A DNA stretch of 64,000 bases, from assembly GCF_021390495.1 (NCBI RefSeq), contig NZ_JAJEJP010000002.1:2976001-3040000 (forward strand), written 5' to 3'. Shown piece by piece: positions 11,191-43,422 of the stretch. How positions within the stretch are numbered: the first letter of the stretch is position 1; every line of letters starts with the position of its first letter. The position numbers and the translations under genes are program-made. Origin of the DNA: Paraburkholderia sp. ZP32-5. Lineage in GTDB: Bacteria; Pseudomonadota; Gammaproteobacteria; Burkholderiales; Burkholderiaceae. The notes beneath the pieces were generated by a model, which was not told the origin of the DNA, searched no databases, and saw only the letters and a program-made list of their open reading frames with translations.

Positions 11191-11852
11191 GACGAACAGA
11201 CTCCGGTGTCGGGTTGAAATGCGTTGAATGTTTCAGATCTCTGGATTGTGCGCCTCATCGTTCCTACCAAATCCAGGAAAAGCCCGTGGTTTGCCCCCTA
11301 TTTCCCGGTCATCATGATCCAGGTCATCGTTGGCGTCGCAGGTCTGGTCCAGTTCGACCGCTGCGTTGCCTATGTCGGATGAAGCTTTCAGATGCAATTA
11401 CTGGAGCGTTGCTGTCGAATGCCTCCAATGGGTCGAACTGAGCGGAACGCAGTCGGACTCAGTACGGCCGGTTCCGGTCGGTGGTCGGCGCAATCGGGAG
11501 GACGCTCAAACGACCGCTCTACTCCTCTATATCGGTCATTTCCATTGAATTGATCGTCGGCGCGTTTTCGACCCAAGCGCCGCCGACAAAGGTAGCGGAT
11601 TCCAATTGCGATACGGGTAACGGAGTGCGCCCGGTTTCAGCGCGCGATTGGTTGGATATGGGACCAAAGTCTCATTGCGATTGGCAGAAACGCTGAACAC
11701 ACTTAACAGTGACTTACGTAGGGCTGTCACCGCATCGGGTTCGTATGACTGAGGCGCATCGTCGCGCTGTTGATCGGCGGGTGGCTGGCGGTCAAGGCCG
11801 CCATCGAGCACGAACCGACTCTCACCATTCCAGGTGGCACGTCGAGGAGAAC
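11191..11852. other. Long intergenic stretch with no recognisable gene
   Basis: About 660 bases between the Gln/Ser-tract gene and the arylsulfatase. The short open frames here have no family resemblance and poor start contexts, so I call none. It must hold the divergent promoters, but no clear consensus was seen. Confidence 0.5.
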
Positions 11853-14369
11853 ATGATGGGCAAGGACAAGTCAGACGAGAAGTCAGACTCGCAGCTGTCA
11901 CCAGACGGGCTCAATCGTCGCCGTCTCCTCGGATCCGCCTCGCTTATTGCTGCGTCAGCGGCGCTTTCGCGATCCGCTGGCGCTAGCGCGGCCACGCCAT
12001 CCTCTGGCGCCTCGCCTCAAGACGGCTCCGTCCTGCCAAGGCCCGAATCACCGTTTCACGGCAAAATCGAACGCCTGGCCAAGGATTCGACCCCCGACTT
12101 TCCGAAGGAATACACGGCGCCCGCCGGTTCGCCGAACGTTCTTTTGATCCTGACCGATGATGTCGGGTTTGGGGCAAGCAGCACTTTCGGCGGCCCGATC
12201 CAGACACCGAATTTCCAACGCCTTGCGGACAGCGGCCTCCGCTACAACATGTTTCACACCACCGCGCTTTGCTCACCCACGCGCGCGGCGCTGATTACCG
12301 GTCGCAACCACCATTCGGTGGCCAGCGGCGTCATCACCGAGTTCGCGACCGGCTATCCGGGCTACGATTCGCTCGTTCCGAAGAGTGCGGGCTCCATTGG
12401 CGAAGTTCTCAAGGAGAACGGATACAACACCTCATGGTTCGGCAAGATGCACAATGTGCCGGACTGGATGTCGAGTCAGGTCGGTCCATTCGATTTATGG
12501 CCGAACGGCCTGGGCTTCGAACACTTCTATGGATTCATCGGTGGCGACAGCGACCAATGGCATCCGGCACTATACGAAAACACCAAGCCGATTGAGCCGT
12601 ATCTCGGCGACCCAACCTACATCCTCGATCGCGATCTTGCCGACAAGGCGATTGCATGGATGCGGATGCAGCACGCGCTCGCGCCAGGCAAGCCCTGGCT
12701 TCTTTACTACGCGACCGGCACCGCGCACGCCCCGCATCACGCGCCGAAAGACTGGATCGCGAAATACAAGGGCCAATTCGACCAAGGCTGGGACAAGGTG
12801 CGCGAGGAGACACTCGCCCGTCAGATCAAGCTCGGTGTTGCCCCGCCCGGTACGCAACTCAGCACGAGGCCGGAGCAACTCCCCGCGTGGGATTCCTTGT
12901 CGGATGATCAGAAGCGTCTCTACGCCCGAATGATGGAAGTCTATGCAGGCGCACTGTCACATGCCGACTACCACATCGGCCGTGTACTCGACGCCATTGA
13001 GGAATCCGGGCAGAAAGACAACACGCTGGTTATTTTCATCATGGGCGACAACGGCGCGAGTGCCGAGGGCACGCTTCAAGGTACGACCAATGAGGTGGGA
13101 ACCGCCGCGAATGGTGTCACGGAAAGCATTCCGTTTCTGCTGTCGATGATCGACGAACTCGGCGGCCCCAAAACGTATAACCACTACCCGGTCGGTTGGG
13201 CACACGCGATGGATGCGCCCATGCAATGGACCAAACAGGTCGCCTCTCACTTCGGCGGCACTCGCAACGGCATGGTGATTTCGTGGCCGGCACGCATCAA
13301 GGATAAAGGCGGCCTGCGGTCACAGTTCTGCCATGTGATCGACATTGCGCCGACGATCTACGAGGCGGCGAAGATCACGCCGCCGGTCATGCTCGACGGC
13401 GTGAAGCAGAAGCCGATCGAAGGTGTGAGTCTCGTGTACACGTTCGATGCCGCCAAGGCGCCGACCCGGCATCCCGTGCAGTATTTCGAGCTGGTAGGCA
13501 ACCGTGCGATCTATAAGGACGGCTGGATGGCAAGCACGACGCCGCTTCGCCTGCCATGGGTGACGATTGGGGCCGAGCCCAGCCCAGACGATTACAAATG
13601 GGAGCTGTACAACATCAACACGGATTTCAGCCAGGCCAATAATCTGGCCAGCAAGTACCCCGAGAAGCTGAAGGAACTTCAGCACGCCTTCGACGTGGAG
13701 GCCAAAAAGTACAATGTTTATCCGTTGGATTCTAGTTTCGCGTCACGCGCCGATCCTGCAATCCGGCCGAGTCTGACCCGCGGCCGTAGCGAGTTCACTT
13801 ATTTTCCGGGCATGATCCGCATTCCAGAGGGCTCGGCTCCGGACTTCAAGAACAAATCATGGACGGCCGCTGCCGACGTGATGATCCCGGAGGGCGGCGC
13901 CAATGGGGTGCTGGCAACAATCGGCGGAAGGTACGGCGGTTGGGCGCTGCTCCTGCAGGACAGCAAGCCTCAATTCGCCTATGCGTTCTCGAATCAGCCC
14001 GATCACAAGTTCGTGGTGGTGTCCGATCAGCCGCTTGCGGCGGGCCATCACATCATCCGGGTCAAATTCGACTACGACGGCGGCGGCATTGGAAAGGGAG
14101 CAACGGCGACGCTGCTGGCGGACGAAAAGCAGCTTGGACAAGTCAAGATTCCGAAAACCATTGGAGTCAGAATTTCTCTCGACGAGACCTTCGACGTTGG
14201 AGAGGACACAGGAACTCCAGTGGTCGAAGATTACGCGGATAAGATGCCTTTCAGGTTCACGGGCGAACTCAAGCGATTCGTCGTGGTCCTGCAGCCGCAG
14301 AAGCTAAGCGAAGAGGAGCAACAACGCCTGCGCGACGGTCTGGCGAAAGCGATGATGTCGGTCCAGTAG
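11853..14369 (+). CDS. Tat-exported arylsulfatase (Cys type)
   Basis: Large sulfatase of 838 residues. The signal region NRRRLLGSASLIAASAALS is a twin-arginine type leader, implying periplasmic export in folded form. The active-site signature CSPTRAALITGR starts at Cys140; this Cys must be oxidised to formylglycine. Metal-site residues are in LLILTDDVGFG and GDNGAS. Arylsulfatases release sulfate from aromatic or other sulfate esters, commonly for sulfur scavenging. A C-terminal beta-rich region of about 170 residues follows the sulfatase fold and resembles the extra domain of the longer members. The ATG at 11853 follows GAGGAG. The formylglycine-generating enzyme lies 37 bases downstream on the same strand. 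Confidence 0.9.
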   Translation: MMGKDKSDEKSDSQLSPDGLNRRRLLGSASLIAASAALSRSAGASAATPSSGASPQDGSVLPRPESPFHGKIERLAKDSTPDFPKEYTAPAGSPNVLLILTDDVGFGASSTFGGPIQTPNFQRLADSGLRYNMFHTTALCSPTRAALITGRNHHSVASGVITEFATGYPGYDSLVPKSAGSIGEVLKENGYNTSWFGKMHNVPDWMSSQVGPFDLWPNGLGFEHFYGFIGGDSDQWHPALYENTKPIEPYLGDPTYILDRDLADKAIAWMRMQHALAPGKPWLLYYATGTAHAPHHAPKDWIAKYKGQFDQGWDKVREETLARQIKLGVAPPGTQLSTRPEQLPAWDSLSDDQKRLYARMMEVYAGALSHADYHIGRVLDAIEESGQKDNTLVIFIMGDNGASAEGTLQGTTNEVGTAANGVTESIPFLLSMIDELGGPKTYNHYPVGWAHAMDAPMQWTKQVASHFGGTRNGMVISWPARIKDKGGLRSQFCHVIDIAPTIYEAAKITPPVMLDGVKQKPIEGVSLVYTFDAAKAPTRHPVQYFELVGNRAIYKDGWMASTTPLRLPWVTIGAEPSPDDYKWELYNINTDFSQANNLASKYPEKLKELQHAFDVEAKKYNVYPLDSSFASRADPAIRPSLTRGRSEFTYFPGMIRIPEGSAPDFKNKSWTAAADVMIPEGGANGVLATIGGRYGGWALLLQDSKPQFAYAFSNQPDHKFVVVSDQPLAAGHHIIRVKFDYDGGGIGKGATATLLADEKQLGQVKIPKTIGVRISLDETFDVGEDTGTPVVEDYADKMPFRFTGELKRFVVVLQPQKLSEEEQQRLRDGLAKAMMSVQ

Positions 14370-14406
14370 CGATCGTTTCGGGACTGTTCCGGTGGGGCAC
14401 ATTGCC

Positions 14407-15390
14407 ATGAGTTCACAGAGACAAGTTTCCAGGCGAGCCCAAGCTTCACGGCGAGATCCGTTCGCCGACATGGTTTTGGTCCCAGGCGGCGAATTCCGCA
14501 TGGGTTCGGATCGTCACTACCCGGAGGAAGCGCCCGCGCACCGGGTCAGAGTCGACGGGTTCTGGATCGACCGTACGCCGGTAACGAACCGCCAGTTTCG
14601 CAAGTTCGTCGACGCGACGAATTATGTGACCTTCGCCGAGATCGCGCCGAGGGCCGAGGACTATCCGGGCGCGCTCCCACACATGCTGCAGGCCGGGTCG
14701 CTTGTCTTCTCATCCCCGAAGGGCCCCGTCGACCTCCACGATTGGACGCAATGGTGGCAGTTCAAATTCGGTGCCGATTGGAGAAGGCCCTACGGCCCGC
14801 GCAGTTCGATAAGTGGAAAGGACGACGATCCCGTGGTGCATGTCGCCTATTGCGACGCCGAGGCATATGCACGGTGGGCAGGCAAGGAATTGCCGACCGA
14901 GGCCGAGTGGGAATTTGCGGCGCGTGGCGGTCTCGATAGCGCGGAATACGCGTGGGGCGACGAGTTCACGCCCGCTGGAAAGCAGATGGCCAATACCTGG
15001 CAAGGCGCGTTTCCATATCAGAACCTGAAGCAGGACGGCTTCGAGCGTACTTCACCGGTGAGGTCCTTTCCGCCAAACGGTTATGGCATCTATGACATGA
15101 TCGGCAATGTGTGGGAATGGACCGCGGATTTCTGGTCGACCCGCCACACAGCCGACGCGCCCAAGGCGTGCTGCATCCCCCGGAACCCACGCGGCGGCGC
15201 AGAGGGGGAAAGCTACGACCCTTGTCAGCCCGAGATTCCTATTCCCCGCAGAGTGCTGAAAGGCGGTTCGCACCTTTGCGCACCGAACTATTGCCGTCGC
15301 TACCGCCCGGCAGCACGCCATGCCGAATCGATCGACACGTCTACGAGCCATATCGGATTTCGCTGCGTAGTGCGTGTTGAGAGAGGTTGA
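14407..15390 (+). CDS. Formylglycine-generating enzyme (sulfatase maturation)
   Basis: A 327-residue SUMF1/FGE-family protein. It shows VLVPGGEFRMGSD, DGFWIDRTPVTNRQF, LPTEAEWEFAARGG and NVWEWT, all hallmarks of the fold. The catalytic pair is present as CAPNYC (Cys291 and Cys296) in the KGGSHLCAPNYCRRYRPAAR segment, which equals the CxxxxC of oxygen- and copper-dependent FGEs. It converts the active-site Cys of the adjacent arylsulfatase to C-alpha-formylglycine in the cytosol before Tat export. The ATG at 14407 follows GGTGGGG; a GTG at 14392 is an alternative. The adjacency to a Cys-type sulfatase is strong functional support. Confidence 0.93.
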   Translation: MSSQRQVSRRAQASRRDPFADMVLVPGGEFRMGSDRHYPEEAPAHRVRVDGFWIDRTPVTNRQFRKFVDATNYVTFAEIAPRAEDYPGALPHMLQAGSLVFSSPKGPVDLHDWTQWWQFKFGADWRRPYGPRSSISGKDDDPVVHVAYCDAEAYARWAGKELPTEAEWEFAARGGLDSAEYAWGDEFTPAGKQMANTWQGAFPYQNLKQDGFERTSPVRSFPPNGYGIYDMIGNVWEWTADFWSTRHTADAPKACCIPRNPRGGAEGESYDPCQPEIPIPRRVLKGGSHLCAPNYCRRYRPAARHAESIDTSTSHIGFRCVVRVERG

Positions 15391-38759: not shown

Positions 38760-39139
38760 ACTTAAACGCTGGTTTTGGGCACAGTGGATTGCCGCACGCG
38801 TTTGTGCTCGCCCAATCGATGCGGACACCGCGACGGAAAGGCCATTGCACCTTTGAAAGCCGCCGTCGGGCCGTGCGGTACAGGACGGCCGAGTTGAGTC
38901 GTGTCGGGACGACGGCATCAGGCAGAGATCGGCAGAAGAGTCTCTCGTTGCTTCGATCAATTGGACATTCGAGCGACCACTTCGCATCCGTCAACGGCCG
39001 TTTGAGGCCTGTGATCCACGTTGAATCGTCGGCCAATCCGTCATTGAGGTGACGACTCGATGAGGCTGATACGTTAAGCTGTCGCGCCGATCGCGGAACA
39101 TCACCGTGCTCTGCACTAAGCGTTGTTCAAGGAGGATAT
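38760..39139. other. Intergenic stretch before the nuclease-like gene
   Basis: Short frames on both strands (for example 38756-39052) look like chance reading frames. The only supported element is the ribosome binding site AAGGAGG at 39129-39135 for the next gene. Confidence 0.45.
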
Positions 39140-41155
39140 TTGGACCTAACCTTGTTTAAAGCACTTGTTGATTCATGCCCCACCCCGTCGGCACCGGATC
39201 TGGCGAAGCTGAAAGCTAACGAATCTCTTGCAGAAATACGGGGCTGTTTTCGAGTCGAAGACAGCGACAAAGCGCGCATGGATGTCCGTGGATTCATTGC
39301 TGACCTCGGATTTCGCTTCATGTGCGACCAATCCTCTCCGGATCCCTACCGCGATGTCGCACTTGCGCTCCAGGACGCGCTCAAAGAGCGTGGGAACTCG
39401 GTAGAGCCGACGAGCAATTGGACCTACGCGGTCCAACTCGCCTTCACGCACGCAGCTAGATTCCGCACGGGCCTATCCGCCGACCAACAGTGGATTGCGG
39501 ATACACGGATAACTTCCCTCTCCAAGGCGATTCGCGGTTTGAGGGGGCTTGGTTATCAGATCGACCTGCCGGCCAGCGGTGGCGTAAATGTCCCGGATTC
39601 GGAGGTGCAACGATTGGCGGACGAGATAGCCGGTTTGTCCGCCTCTTTGGGGCGCGCGTTGGCATTCAGTGCAGCCGGCGCAATGGGACCCCACTACAGT
39701 AAGATGACGGGTCGATTCAGACTCGGGCGCGCCGGGAAGACAACACAGATCGATGCACCACCGGAAAGGCCGCTTGCCTATCTTTACCAATTGGGCCTTC
39801 GCTATTTCGCGCATCAGCCGACTGCCTCCAAACCAAAAGAAACACTTGCCCGACTCGTCGACCTCGTGACATGGGCAACGGCATTGCTTGACTTGTCCGT
39901 AAGTAGCTTCGAGTTGATATTCGCACGACCGTCGGACATCGTAGGCATCATGCAGAAGTCGGCGGTCTACGATTCCGTCTTTCTGGTGGCTCAAGCGAAG
40001 CCGTCGCATGCCCGCGAATACATTCAATGGATTATGTCTCAGGAGCCGCTCGCCAAGCTGGAAGACAAGCGTGGGAGAACGGCTGATCAGATTCTTGCGG
40101 TCGCCCAGAGAATGTTACGTGCTTGTGAGCGAGTTGCGCCGCATGACTTCTCCATATTTGCCGTGCAAGATGCAGCGTTCGCTTCGAATCTCGATCTCAA
40201 ACCGGCAGCAGAATTGCTATGCGAGGTATTCTGTCACCCACAAGATGTCAACCGAAAACTCGCATATCCACCGAGTGATAACGACATAGACGCGGCTTTC
40301 CGGCCTCTCGTCGCCGACGGCCAAGCTTTCGTGATGCAGCCACCACCCATGGCGTCGAGAGCCATTGCGAACGCAGCACTCGACTGGTGCAAGAACAACT
40401 GGCCGAACAAGCGGTTTGACGACGAAGCGATGGGACCACTGTTCGAGCGATTTGTGCGTGCCAAGATGGAAGAGCGCGGCGTCACCGTGCTGCACGGCGA
40501 GTACAAAGCCGGGCAGTCGAGTGGCGAATGCGATGCAGTTGTGGAAACGACGACGCTAATTTGCTTCTTCGAATTGAAGAGCAAGATGTTTACTAGGGCA
40601 GCACGCGCGGGCAATGATGTCACCGCTTTAGGAGACCTTGCTCAGGCTCTGGTCCGGCCACAAGCTCAGGCCATGGAGAGGCACGCTGTTCTTCAAGAAC
40701 ACGGTGCGATATCGCTGGAAGGCGATTCATCGAAATCAACGATTGAGCTGAACGGTCGAGAAGTTCTCAAAGTTTCGATAACGCGCGGCGAGCTTGGAAG
40801 TCTGCACGATCGACCGTTCCTGCAGCACTTCTTGCGAGCAGGATGCGTTGCAACATTTAATACTTTGGATCCAAAGCAGCAGAGCAAGCTAAATGACTTA
40901 CATGTGTGGTTCGAAAAATTGAGAAGAGCCGCGACGCGGGCAGGTGACGGTGATTTCTATGAGAAAACGCCTTTTTCCAAATCGTGGAGCATCTCAATCT
41001 ATCAGCTACTCCTTCTGCTTGAACGCACAGCGAGCAACGAAACCTTCGGTCAGGAGTTCTTGCGGACGAGGCTGATGATTACGCCGACGCGGGACTTCTA
41101 CACCGAATATGAGTACAAACTCCAACTGGACCAGTTGAAGGAAGCGAATCAGTGA
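39140..41155 (+). CDS. Orphan protein with PD-(D/E)XK nuclease-like core
   Basis: A 671-residue cytosolic protein from a TTG start at 39140, four bases after AAGGAGG; no ATG with comparable support lies nearby. The N-terminal 400 residues are helical and unrecognised. From about residue 430 the text fits a PD-(D/E)XK nuclease: FERFVRAKMEERG (Glu436) in the first helix, then GECDAVVE (Asp465) and, on the next strand, CFFELKSK (Glu478, Lys480), i.e. D-x12-ExK. After this come further helices. The fold is shared by restriction enzymes, Mrr-like and anti-phage nucleases. No methylase or helicase is adjacent. An IS30 element lies about 140 bases downstream. Nuclease function is inferred from motif geometry only. 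Confidence 0.68.
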   Translation: MDLTLFKALVDSCPTPSAPDLAKLKANESLAEIRGCFRVEDSDKARMDVRGFIADLGFRFMCDQSSPDPYRDVALALQDALKERGNSVEPTSNWTYAVQLAFTHAARFRTGLSADQQWIADTRITSLSKAIRGLRGLGYQIDLPASGGVNVPDSEVQRLADEIAGLSASLGRALAFSAAGAMGPHYSKMTGRFRLGRAGKTTQIDAPPERPLAYLYQLGLRYFAHQPTASKPKETLARLVDLVTWATALLDLSVSSFELIFARPSDIVGIMQKSAVYDSVFLVAQAKPSHAREYIQWIMSQEPLAKLEDKRGRTADQILAVAQRMLRACERVAPHDFSIFAVQDAAFASNLDLKPAAELLCEVFCHPQDVNRKLAYPPSDNDIDAAFRPLVADGQAFVMQPPPMASRAIANAALDWCKNNWPNKRFDDEAMGPLFERFVRAKMEERGVTVLHGEYKAGQSSGECDAVVETTTLICFFELKSKMFTRAARAGNDVTALGDLAQALVRPQAQAMERHAVLQEHGAISLEGDSSKSTIELNGREVLKVSITRGELGSLHDRPFLQHFLRAGCVATFNTLDPKQQSKLNDLHVWFEKLRRAATRAGDGDFYEKTPFSKSWSISIYQLLLLLERTASNETFGQEFLRTRLMITPTRDFYTEYEYKLQLDQLKEANQ

Positions 41156-41293
41156 CCGTCACTGTAGTGAAGAGGCGCCCCCCCTCGCGACGATCAGGCA
41201 ACTAAATGTCCCAGTGGTGGGCAAGATAGTGACCGCGTATGTGACATTGATGCGCTGCACAGATCTGATATCTCGACCGACCGAAAAGGGTGA

Positions 41294-41316
41294 CGGATTC
41301 AACCGGTCGATGCAAC
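41294..41316. repeat. Left terminal inverted repeat of the IS30 element
   Basis: Twenty-three bases identical to the reverse complement of 42495-42517. Confidence 0.85.
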
Positions 41317-41351
41317 ACCTAGAATCTGCGTGAGCAGCGGAGGAGTTGCAA

Positions 41352-42512
41352 ATGAAACAGCGACCGAGAATTTATTACTCCGAGACCCAGAAAGCGCTGA
41401 TGTGGGACCGATGGCGCAAGGGCGATACGATTCATCAGATTGCCAAACTGTTTGATCGGGGCCATTCTTCGATTCAGCGAATACTATCGGAGAACGGTGG
41501 CATCCAGCCGCCGCAAAGGCACCGTGCGCCACAGGCATTGACGCTCGCGGAGCGCGAGGAGATTTCCCGTTCACTGGTGTCCGGATTGTCGATCCGGTCA
41601 ATAGCAGCCAGGCTGGGACGCGCCCCTTCCACTATAAGTCGTGAGTTGCAGCGCAACGGGGGCAGCCAGGGCTATCGGGCAAGCCAGGCGGATGCGATCG
41701 CGTGGCAGCGGGCACGACGGCCGAAGGTTTGCAAACTTATGCGAAACCAGACGCTGGCGCGAGTTGTCGCTGCAAAGCTGAAGTTGCAGTGGTCCCCTGA
41801 GCAGATTGCCGGTTGGCTCAGGCATGCTTATGCGGTCAACAAGGACTATCTGGTGTCGCACGAGACAATCTACCGGAGCCTCTATATTCAAGCTCGTGGT
41901 GCCCTGAAAAAAGAACTGCTTGAGCACTTGCGACGCTTTCGAACCATGCGCCGATCCCGTCATCACACACTGAAAACTGAGGGTCGCACGAACATTCGCG
42001 ACGCCGTGTCGATCAGTGAACGCCCCGCGACGGCGGAGGATCGCGCAATACCTGGGCACTGGGAAGGTGACTTGCTGTATGGCAACGCGACGAGCCAGAT
42101 TGCAACTCTCGTCGAACGTCAAAGTCGATTCGTGATGCTGGTAAAAGTGCCCAGCAAGGATTCTGCGGCTGTGGTCGACGCGCTGATACGACACGCCAGC
42201 AAACTCCCGAGAGAACTCTATAGATCGCTGACGTGGGACAGGGGATCGGAAATGGCGGAGCACCACCGCTTTAGCGTTGCAACCGACATTGAGGTCTATT
42301 TCTGCGACCCACATCATCCCTGGCAACGCGGTTCGAACGAAAATACGAATGGGCTTCTGAGGCAATACTTCCCCAAGGGTACTGATCTGTCTGCTTACTC
42401 ACAGGCCGGACTGGATGCCGTCGCCAGGCGGCTCAACGAACGTCCCCGAAAAACACTAGACTTCGATACGCCGGCTGAGCGATTTAACCAAATCGTTGCA
42501 TCGACCGGTTGA
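41352..42512 (+). CDS. IS30-family transposase
   Basis: A 386-residue DDE transposase. The N-terminal part has two helix-turn-helix regions (KGDTIHQIAKLFDRGHSSIQ and SGLSIRSIAARLGRAPSTIS, the latter followed by RELQRNGG). The catalytic residues are in HWEGDLLYG (first Asp), TWDRGSEM (second Asp) and NENTNGLLRQYFPKG (Glu), all characteristic of IS30. GGAGGAG precedes the ATG at 41352. The frame is undamaged for its full expected length and ends within the right terminal repeat. Confidence 0.96.
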   Translation: MKQRPRIYYSETQKALMWDRWRKGDTIHQIAKLFDRGHSSIQRILSENGGIQPPQRHRAPQALTLAEREEISRSLVSGLSIRSIAARLGRAPSTISRELQRNGGSQGYRASQADAIAWQRARRPKVCKLMRNQTLARVVAAKLKLQWSPEQIAGWLRHAYAVNKDYLVSHETIYRSLYIQARGALKKELLEHLRRFRTMRRSRHHTLKTEGRTNIRDAVSISERPATAEDRAIPGHWEGDLLYGNATSQIATLVERQSRFVMLVKVPSKDSAAVVDALIRHASKLPRELYRSLTWDRGSEMAEHHRFSVATDIEVYFCDPHHPWQRGSNENTNGLLRQYFPKGTDLSAYSQAGLDAVARRLNERPRKTLDFDTPAERFNQIVASTG

Positions 42513-42517
42513 ATCCG
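42495..42517. repeat. Right terminal inverted repeat of the IS30 element
   Basis: Contains the last codons and the TGA stop of the transposase. A near copy occurs alone at 20995-21017. Confidence 0.85.
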
Positions 42518-42749: not shown

Positions 42750-42930
42750 GTCGTCGGGAGACACCCAGCGACTAGGTTTGACAGCCTAATTGTTACGTCC
42801 GCACACCCGCCAAGGCGGGAGTGCGTTTACCTCTGCACGTCTATATTCAATGGGCGGGCCTTGGTAGGGGAGCCGCAAGGCTCGCCGGCTTGACGTAACA
42901 CCGGTCTGTCAACCCTACTTCGTGCCCGCT
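42750..42930 (+). ncRNA. C4/CI-antisense-RNA-like structured leader
   Basis: Begins with a GTCG...CGAC hairpin (42751-42772), then GGTTTGACAG at 42775-42784 and GTTACGTC at 42792-42799. Both have downstream partners: GACGTAAC at 42892-42899 and CTGTCAACC at 42906-42914. Between them lie a GC-rich hairpin (GCAC-CCCGCC/GGCGGG-GTGC, 42801-42824) and GAGCC-GCAA-GGCTC (42870-42883). The order of a short 5' RNA with TGACAGCC, followed by complementary targets in the same leader, is that of the C4/CI antisense RNAs of P1- and P4-type phages. In those phages this RNA pairs with the leader to shut down transcription. Recognition is from memory of the motif, not a covariance search. Confidence 0.5.
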
Positions 42931-42993
42931 CACCCCTTTCCCCAAAAGCGAGTGACCAGGCGATCCAGGAAGCAACAGGGAGAAGATCGCACC

Positions 42994-43422
42994 ATGACCA
43001 GGTCCGTCAAAAATCAACCGGCTTCGCGTCCCGCCGTCGACGCACTCCAGTACGAAAAGCTTGCCCTTTCCGCATTCGACTTATGCGACCGACAGGTAAG
43101 CCAACTGGAGACTTTGATCACCCTCGCATCGTCGATATGTAATAACCGTGCGATAACACGCGACGAAAGACGCCAGCGTCAGACGTTGCTCGAATTACTT
43201 CTAGACACCGCAGAGCAATATCAACAGGAACTCGAATGCGAGCGCGAGCTTTTTCAGGTGATCGCTCTCGACGCAAAGGGCGTCCCACACAGCCGCATCA
43301 CCGCGCGCCATGCAGCGAAGCTGCTTGCCGAGGCATCGCAACGCGCGAGAGCACAGCAAACGGAAGTGCCTGTCTCCAGCGCAAAAGCCACTGACACGGT
43401 GACCTCGAACACCGTGCAGTAA
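42994..43422 (+). CDS. Small hypothetical protein downstream of C4-like leader
   Basis: A 142-residue protein. The ATG at 42994 follows GGGAGAAG; an upstream start at 42922 would read through the end of the leader and is unlikely. The centre is a long charged helix (ITRDERRQRQTLLELLLDTA, YQQELECERELFQ), probably a coiled coil, and the C-terminus is Thr/Ser/Val-rich. Two short Cys-containing helices precede it. It resembles no enzyme. Its position directly after a phage-type regulatory leader suggests a prophage or satellite origin, with expression controlled by that leader. Confidence 0.65.
   Translation: MTRSVKNQPASRPAVDALQYEKLALSAFDLCDRQVSQLETLITLASSICNNRAITRDERRQRQTLLELLLDTAEQYQQELECERELFQVIALDAKGVPHSRITARHAAKLLAEASQRARAQQTEVPVSSAKATDTVTSNTVQ

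Follow-up and report, generated by a model that had tools for sequence, protein, structure and literature searches.

A single gene in the 64,000-nucleotide stretch of Paraburkholderia sp. ZP32-5 DNA analysed here (the window) encodes what, judging from sequence, is very probably a PD-(D/E)XK nuclease. The product, P0001, is probably a stand-alone antiphage (or anti-plasmid) effector from a new family with distant kinship to GapS1. A role in defence is quite likely. The models of Pfam, NCBIfam, PHROGs and PADLOC leave the gene unnamed; P0001 had no match at E ≤ 0.1 in either Pfam or PADLOC 2.0.0. A first-pass annotation had proposed a solitary defence nuclease of no known family. Its nuclease and stand-alone claims are supported below, the lack of a known family is supported in part, and the defence context at the window locus is not.

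The gene is a 671-residue open reading frame at 39140-41155 on the forward strand, with a TTG start codon. Read directly, a ribosome-binding-site-like AAGGAGG lies at 39129-39135 (+), 4 bases before the start. Homologues are colinear, with GTG (L001 and L002) or ATG (L003 and L014) at the place of the TTG. Hence, given the AAGGAGG and the colinear homologues, the frame described in the first-pass annotation is real. The source genome (G000) comprises 9.09 Mb in 4 contigs. Briefly, P0001 consists of an N-terminal region (residues ~1-420), mostly helical in a low-confidence model, a predicted PD-(D/E)XK nuclease domain (~428-545) and a C-terminal part reaching residue 671.

The putative active site reads E-x28-D-x12-E-x-K-x29-Q. 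All residues singled out previously (E436, D465, E478, K480 and the string CFFELKSK) are found at the places given for them. To assess conservation we used an alignment of 18 sequences: P0001 and 17 homologues that are 15-94% identical to it. The set is less independent than 18 rows suggest, since three of them (L002 and the pair L018/L063) are close to another row. L020 and L064 (both in pieces), G087/L004 (a fragment) and L070 (a prophage copy found later) were left out; the prophage copy retains the motif. D465 (codon 40532-40534, +) and both E478 and K480 (E478-L-K480 codons 40571-40579, +) are present in 18/18 sequences. None of the aligned homologues lacks any of the three, a loss that would have counted against the nuclease reading. 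The leading E436 (40445-40447, +) is E in 17 of the 18 and D in L031. Q510 (40667-40669, +) is again invariant, and a Gln occupies a like place in 5/5 GapS1-type proteins. So is G432 (40433-40435, +; position by arithmetic from 39140), at the start of the helix that bears E436. Altogether nine positions are strictly invariant in the 18 sequences, the others being G491, L518, N371 and P211. K482 is K in 17 sequences, the exception being L060 with R. Spacing is constant between D and E (12) and between K and Q (29), and ranges from 28 to 40 between E and D. The four most conserved 25-residue blocks of the alignment cover P0001 residues 451-550.

Were invariant positions placed at random, the chance that D465, E478 and K480 would all be among the nine is 1.7e-6. 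The motif alone is common: of 137 control proteins, 64 carry D-x(9-20)-[DE]xK and 6 the longer E-x(25-40)-D-x12-[DE]xK. The motif by itself is weak evidence for a nuclease; it is conservation that makes the motif evidence strong.

The nuclease region resembles YraN, which a passage in PMC1189080 places among PD-(D/E)XK families. YraN models weakly match P0001 residues 428-486 (E = 0.005). We searched 369 genomes of the class with a family profile built from the first 13 sequences (E ≤ 0.001). Matches were obtained in 76 genomes, mostly short ones at model positions ~430-490 and in short ORFs. By eye, 26 of the 27 short ORFs examined carry the YraN pattern of G-E-[ILV]-D and, after a gap of 12 residues, E-V-R/K, aligned with D465 and E478-x-K480 of P0001. 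The other, L041, is not YraN-like but an AAA_14/DUF4143 protein. Aligned with hhalign, the family profile and a profile of 16 YraN-like ORFs matched with E = 1.2e-10 over P0001 residues 425-490. The likeness to YraN/UPF0102 (TIGR00252, PF02021; structure 3fov) covers this segment, in which G, E, D and E line up between the two. P0001 differs in overall build: the YraN-like ORFs recovered are ~116-175 aa long and lack its large N-terminal region. Nor is P0001 a YraN/UPF0102 member, as it scores 16.8 bits against a cut-off of 109 and, at 671 aa, is no small single domain. One plasmid record labels a homologue as YraN family.

Structure models are of low confidence, with a mean pLDDT of 34.7 for full-length P0001 (4 sequences) and 46.5 for the domain (5 sequences). 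The full-length model places a helix at 428-445, strands at 449-452, 463-469 and 474-480, a helix at 494-520 and strands at 535-542. This predicted order fits the alpha-beta-beta-beta-alpha-beta core of a PD-(D/E)XK fold. The YraN-family structure 3fov, also a weak match by sequence profile, ranked first in Foldseek (E = 0.025). McrBC, XisH and Hjc chains followed as weak matches among unrelated chains. VIA-align gave no signal above chance. The earlier PD-(D/E)XK assignment is well supported by residue conservation across the 18 homologues and by profile similarity to YraN.

GapS1 reportedly protects against phage; Mahata et al. are said to have described GAPS1 of Gamma-Mobile-Trio elements in 2024. 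An antiphage role is also carried by the NCBIfam name, antiphage_GapS1 (NF047931), and the wording "GAPS1 defense system protein" occurs in a portion of PMC12774648. P0001 lies outside GapS1 as NF047931 defines it by sequence (curated cut-off 320 bits), with no match at E ≤ 0.1; the model matches 1/18 family members (E = 0.0081). We built a GapS1-type profile of five rows, namely L071, L072 and three of the five plasmid relatives of L071. Only one of the rows, L071, is known to score above the family cut-off, and L072 is below it. A third match of the GapS1 model, L073, is short and was left out. In hhalign the P0001 family aligned with this profile over 436 columns, corresponding to P0001 residues ~155-660 (E = 2.3e-13). 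With L071 and L072 alone, E was 1.2e-9. After removal of the nuclease, the N-terminal parts still aligned (E = 7e-6, score 48.2). By comparison, 30 column shuffles reached a maximum score of 16.8 (best E = 0.23) and the reversed control 14.1 (E = 0.47).

Like P0001, GapS1 is a single polypeptide in which a long N-terminal region precedes E...D-x12-[DE]xK and a later Gln. The D-x12-[DE]xK and the Gln recur in all five GapS1-type proteins. Because of these residues, and of the profile alignment including N-terminal parts, P0001 probably shares ancestry as well as architecture with GapS1. The two differ in that identity is 13% over aligned columns and that the N-terminus of P0001 is ~150 residues longer. 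The earlier statement that the protein matches no known family holds for the library models used, but profile-profile comparison reveals a similarity to GapS1 that spans ~500 residues.

The genome that contains the window encodes a GapS1-like protein of its own, L072, at G000:C1:4183407-4184690 (L072:1372-2952, minus strand; E = 1.4e-41, 144 bits, below the 320-bit cut-off). Its motif is E-x31-D-x12-E-x-K, and its EVKNKALT resembles the ExKxKxLT of the P0001 family.

A further group of proteins combines a helical part with a nuclease-like motif of the same D-x12 spacing. These are NERD-type proteins (PF08378), with or without SEC-C (PF02810), of ~685-725 aa: L027, L067, L032, L029 and L028. 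Their profile aligned with the P0001 family at E = 6.5e-12, and at E = 1e-4 without the nuclease. The NERD group differs in having Gln in place of E478 (consensus VQAKAKRLT), and its nuclease is central, with ~300 further residues after it. A SEC-C tail was found in three of four NERD-group proteins scanned with Pfam (L027, L067 and L032, 718-723 aa) and not in L029. P0001 falls short of the Pfam gathering score for PF08378, with no match at E ≤ 0.1. In the family as a whole, 2/18 members match (best E = 0.013). According to a section of PMC10952713, NERD is found in defence systems of the Mokosh type I and Nhi-like kinds. One speculative reading, which we hold to be possible but doubtful, would unite GapS1, the P0001 family and the NERD/SEC-C proteins in a single broad superfamily, largely unrecognised so far, whose members are immune nucleases made of one polypeptide and have a helical sensor region in common. 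The P0001 branch would then spread as a one-gene cassette of minimal size that a small tyrosine recombinase inserts.

A DNA unit of 92-93% identity, at window positions 38934-41259 (+), is common to the window and two other loci, L001 of P. sartisoli and L002 of Burkholderia stagnalis. Similarity is confined to this ~2.3-kb one-gene unit and a short right-edge tail, which runs to ~41290, before the IS30 repeat. L001 and L002 have 2.6 kb in common there. The surroundings of the unit are unrelated in the three genomes. Since the three have only this unit in common, a stand-alone effector is favoured, as the first-pass annotation had supposed. Small XerD-like tyrosine recombinase ORFs, 78% identical to one another, lie near the cassette in two genomes (L001:7036-7752 and L002:11928-12554). 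A search of 21 further sequences, among them the window, detected no such ORF. The L001 recombinase ends near the left edge of the cassette; in L002, too, the recombinase is followed by a similar stretch.

A mobile, sporadic, nuclease-bearing gene might also be a toxin-like selfish element, serving addiction or plasmid maintenance with its nuclease silenced by a partner. In L001 and L002, a 58-aa membrane-type ORF with one strongly hydrophobic segment directly follows the gene, 58-59 bp past its end. However, this ORF with its hydrophobic segment is present in 2 of the 14 loci examined, the window counterpart lacks the segment, and the window, L001 and L002 have little in common beyond one gene. 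We regard a toxin as distinctly unlikely.

The distribution of homologues is patchy. Searches with the single protein found it in 6/117 genomes of the genus (its own and one fragment included) and in 2/398 of a phylum sample (its own included). Among 72,556 plasmid records 14 matched, with 16 and 15 obtained using two other members as query; 12 of the 14 are typed as conjugative. None of 50,697 phage records matched. Profile searches of the genus detected 9/144 genomes, three of them solely via NERD-type proteins. One full-length homologue (L070:1-2073) is terminal on an IMG/VR contig, where genes recognised by eye as tail and lysis genes occupy the other strand.

An alternative is that P0001 processes the DNA of mobile elements, in repair, recombination or as a Holliday-junction-type nuclease, and is carried along by plasmids and islands while having no part in immunity. 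Its nearest nuclease relatives are YraN-type, and Hjc and XisH are among the weak Foldseek rows. The prevalence of conjugative plasmids, the recombinase-like ORFs near the L001 and L002 copies and a Y-family polymerase gene near the L016 homologue point the same way. Against this, the distribution is sporadic at both phylum and genus level, just one gene is common to the three loci, similarity to GapS1 extends beyond the nuclease, and neighbouring genes are enriched for defence models. We therefore consider a DNA-processing enzyme unlikely, and prefer a defence effector.

This enrichment was measured at 20 homologue loci. For each we took up to 7 of the nearest ORFs (120-1300 aa, greedy non-overlapping), 137 in total. 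L063 and L064 were excluded as near-duplicates of L018 and L015. Controls came from 20 regions at places chosen by hand, in which 139 ORFs were picked and 2 long ones dropped to give 137. For 5 of the 20 loci (L002, L003, L060, L070 and L077), control regions were from other genomes. At E ≤ 1e-15, the homologue neighbours matched 89 PADLOC models and the hand-picked controls 4, namely mad3 (five proteins), mad8, DEDDh and PDC-S48. The figure of 89 does not count genes, because PADLOC models overlap; PDC-S02 accounts for 8 of the 25 models among the matches listed. Defence models could be placed at 6 or more of the 20 loci, 4 of these by inference from record annotation. Record annotation agrees with PADLOC model names for HmaB/HmaC at L017, BilD at L015, AbiEii at L016 and SIR2/Dsr1 at L019. 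In G448, a pAgo gene lies 2.2 kb past the homologue (PADLOC placement, with a PDB match to Piwi proteins). A PDC-S02 gene is immediately upstream of the B. territorii homologue (G890), on a contig whose identity we inferred from number and coordinates. The case for a family role in defence also rests on these pAgo and PDC-S02 neighbours and on the IMG/VR homologue with phage-like genes.

Homologues thus adjoin known defence genes more than controls do, which supports a defence context for the family but not for the window locus. There, three neighbours scanned singly against PADLOC gave a generic TPR match and no specific defence model. Some homologue neighbourhoods are ordinary, namely L061, with transporters, and, by eye, L002. 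The expected defence surroundings are borne out by the set, then, and not by the window; the ordinary metabolic contexts that would argue the other way are not the rule, the set being defence-rich although some neighbourhoods are ordinary. Family members themselves resemble PADLOC models little. The best match among the 18 had E = 3.4e-4, PDC-M29B was matched in 6 members (the matches that were placed span some dozens of residues), and P0001 has no convincing model match.

If P0001 is a defence effector, its N-terminal ~420 residues may sense an infection cue or keep the nuclease inactive. Once triggered, the nuclease would cut nucleic acid, probably DNA, with D465, E478 and K480 binding metal and activating water. 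The target could be invader DNA alone, or the chromosome too, as in abortive infection. P0001 is a testable candidate for a one-gene immune nuclease, with its active-site residues named. By way of the link to GapS1, one mutant series could test the whole superfamily. The N-terminal region, conserved between the P0001 family and GapS1 beyond the nuclease, is the place to seek infection sensing.

A restriction endonuclease with its methylase elsewhere, or a type IV-like reader of modified DNA, is highly unlikely. The PD-(D/E)XK motif and a weak DpnII match in 1/18 members (E = 2.7e-4) are compatible with such an enzyme. So are methylase genes within ~5 kb of two homologues, a cytosine methyltransferase at L063 and a DUF1156 protein, taken as the HmaB match, at L017. 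However, these two methylases differ and either belong to other systems or are non-adjacent. P0001 has no reader domain in Pfam, and no methylase, as would adjoin a type II enzyme, was detected among 10 window proteins scanned with Pfam.

The gene lies in an accessory island of ~40.5 kb at 4424-44973, delimited by comparing flanks with relatives. The island is absent from 6/6 relatives fetched, in which the flanks are close together, being ~85-330 bp apart in five and ~1,750 bp in one. This confirms the accessory block described earlier, the counterparts of window positions ~4,420 and ~44,974 being near neighbours in every case. By eye, the right boundary coincides with the 3' end of a fumarylacetoacetate hydrolase-like gene. 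G+C content is 0.51-0.56 around the gene (36-45 kb), 0.53-0.64 at 26-36 kb and 0.61-0.68 at 45-48 kb. Larger ORFs of the island at 4-34 kb appear by eye to be metabolic or regulatory, including sulfatase, oxidoreductase and signalling genes. Because of this, the island is not a classic defence island, a point that weighs against the immune reading. At 11709-15390, a sulfatase-like gene is followed by a formylglycine-generating-enzyme-like gene, both recognised by eye.

Two downstream features had been noted previously, and both are present. An IS30-type element occupies 41294-42517 (+), bounded by perfect 23-bp terminal inverted repeats (41294-41316 and 42495-42517). Its transposase (41346-42512) has HTH_38 and rve domains; the name IS30 was assigned by eye. 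We take the element as a neighbour and not part of the system. The phage-type RNA leader placed 1.6 kb away is a C4 antisense RNA in Rfam (RF01695; 42846-42937, +), 1.7 kb past the P0001 stop codon; it scores 59.8 bits, where the cut-off is 45. It too is a neighbour, with no sign of belonging to the system. The block that holds it is without an evident prophage, and the RNA overlaps the start of a 166-aa ORF (42922-43422) that has no Pfam match. C4 antisense RNA is known from P4 and P1 immunity.
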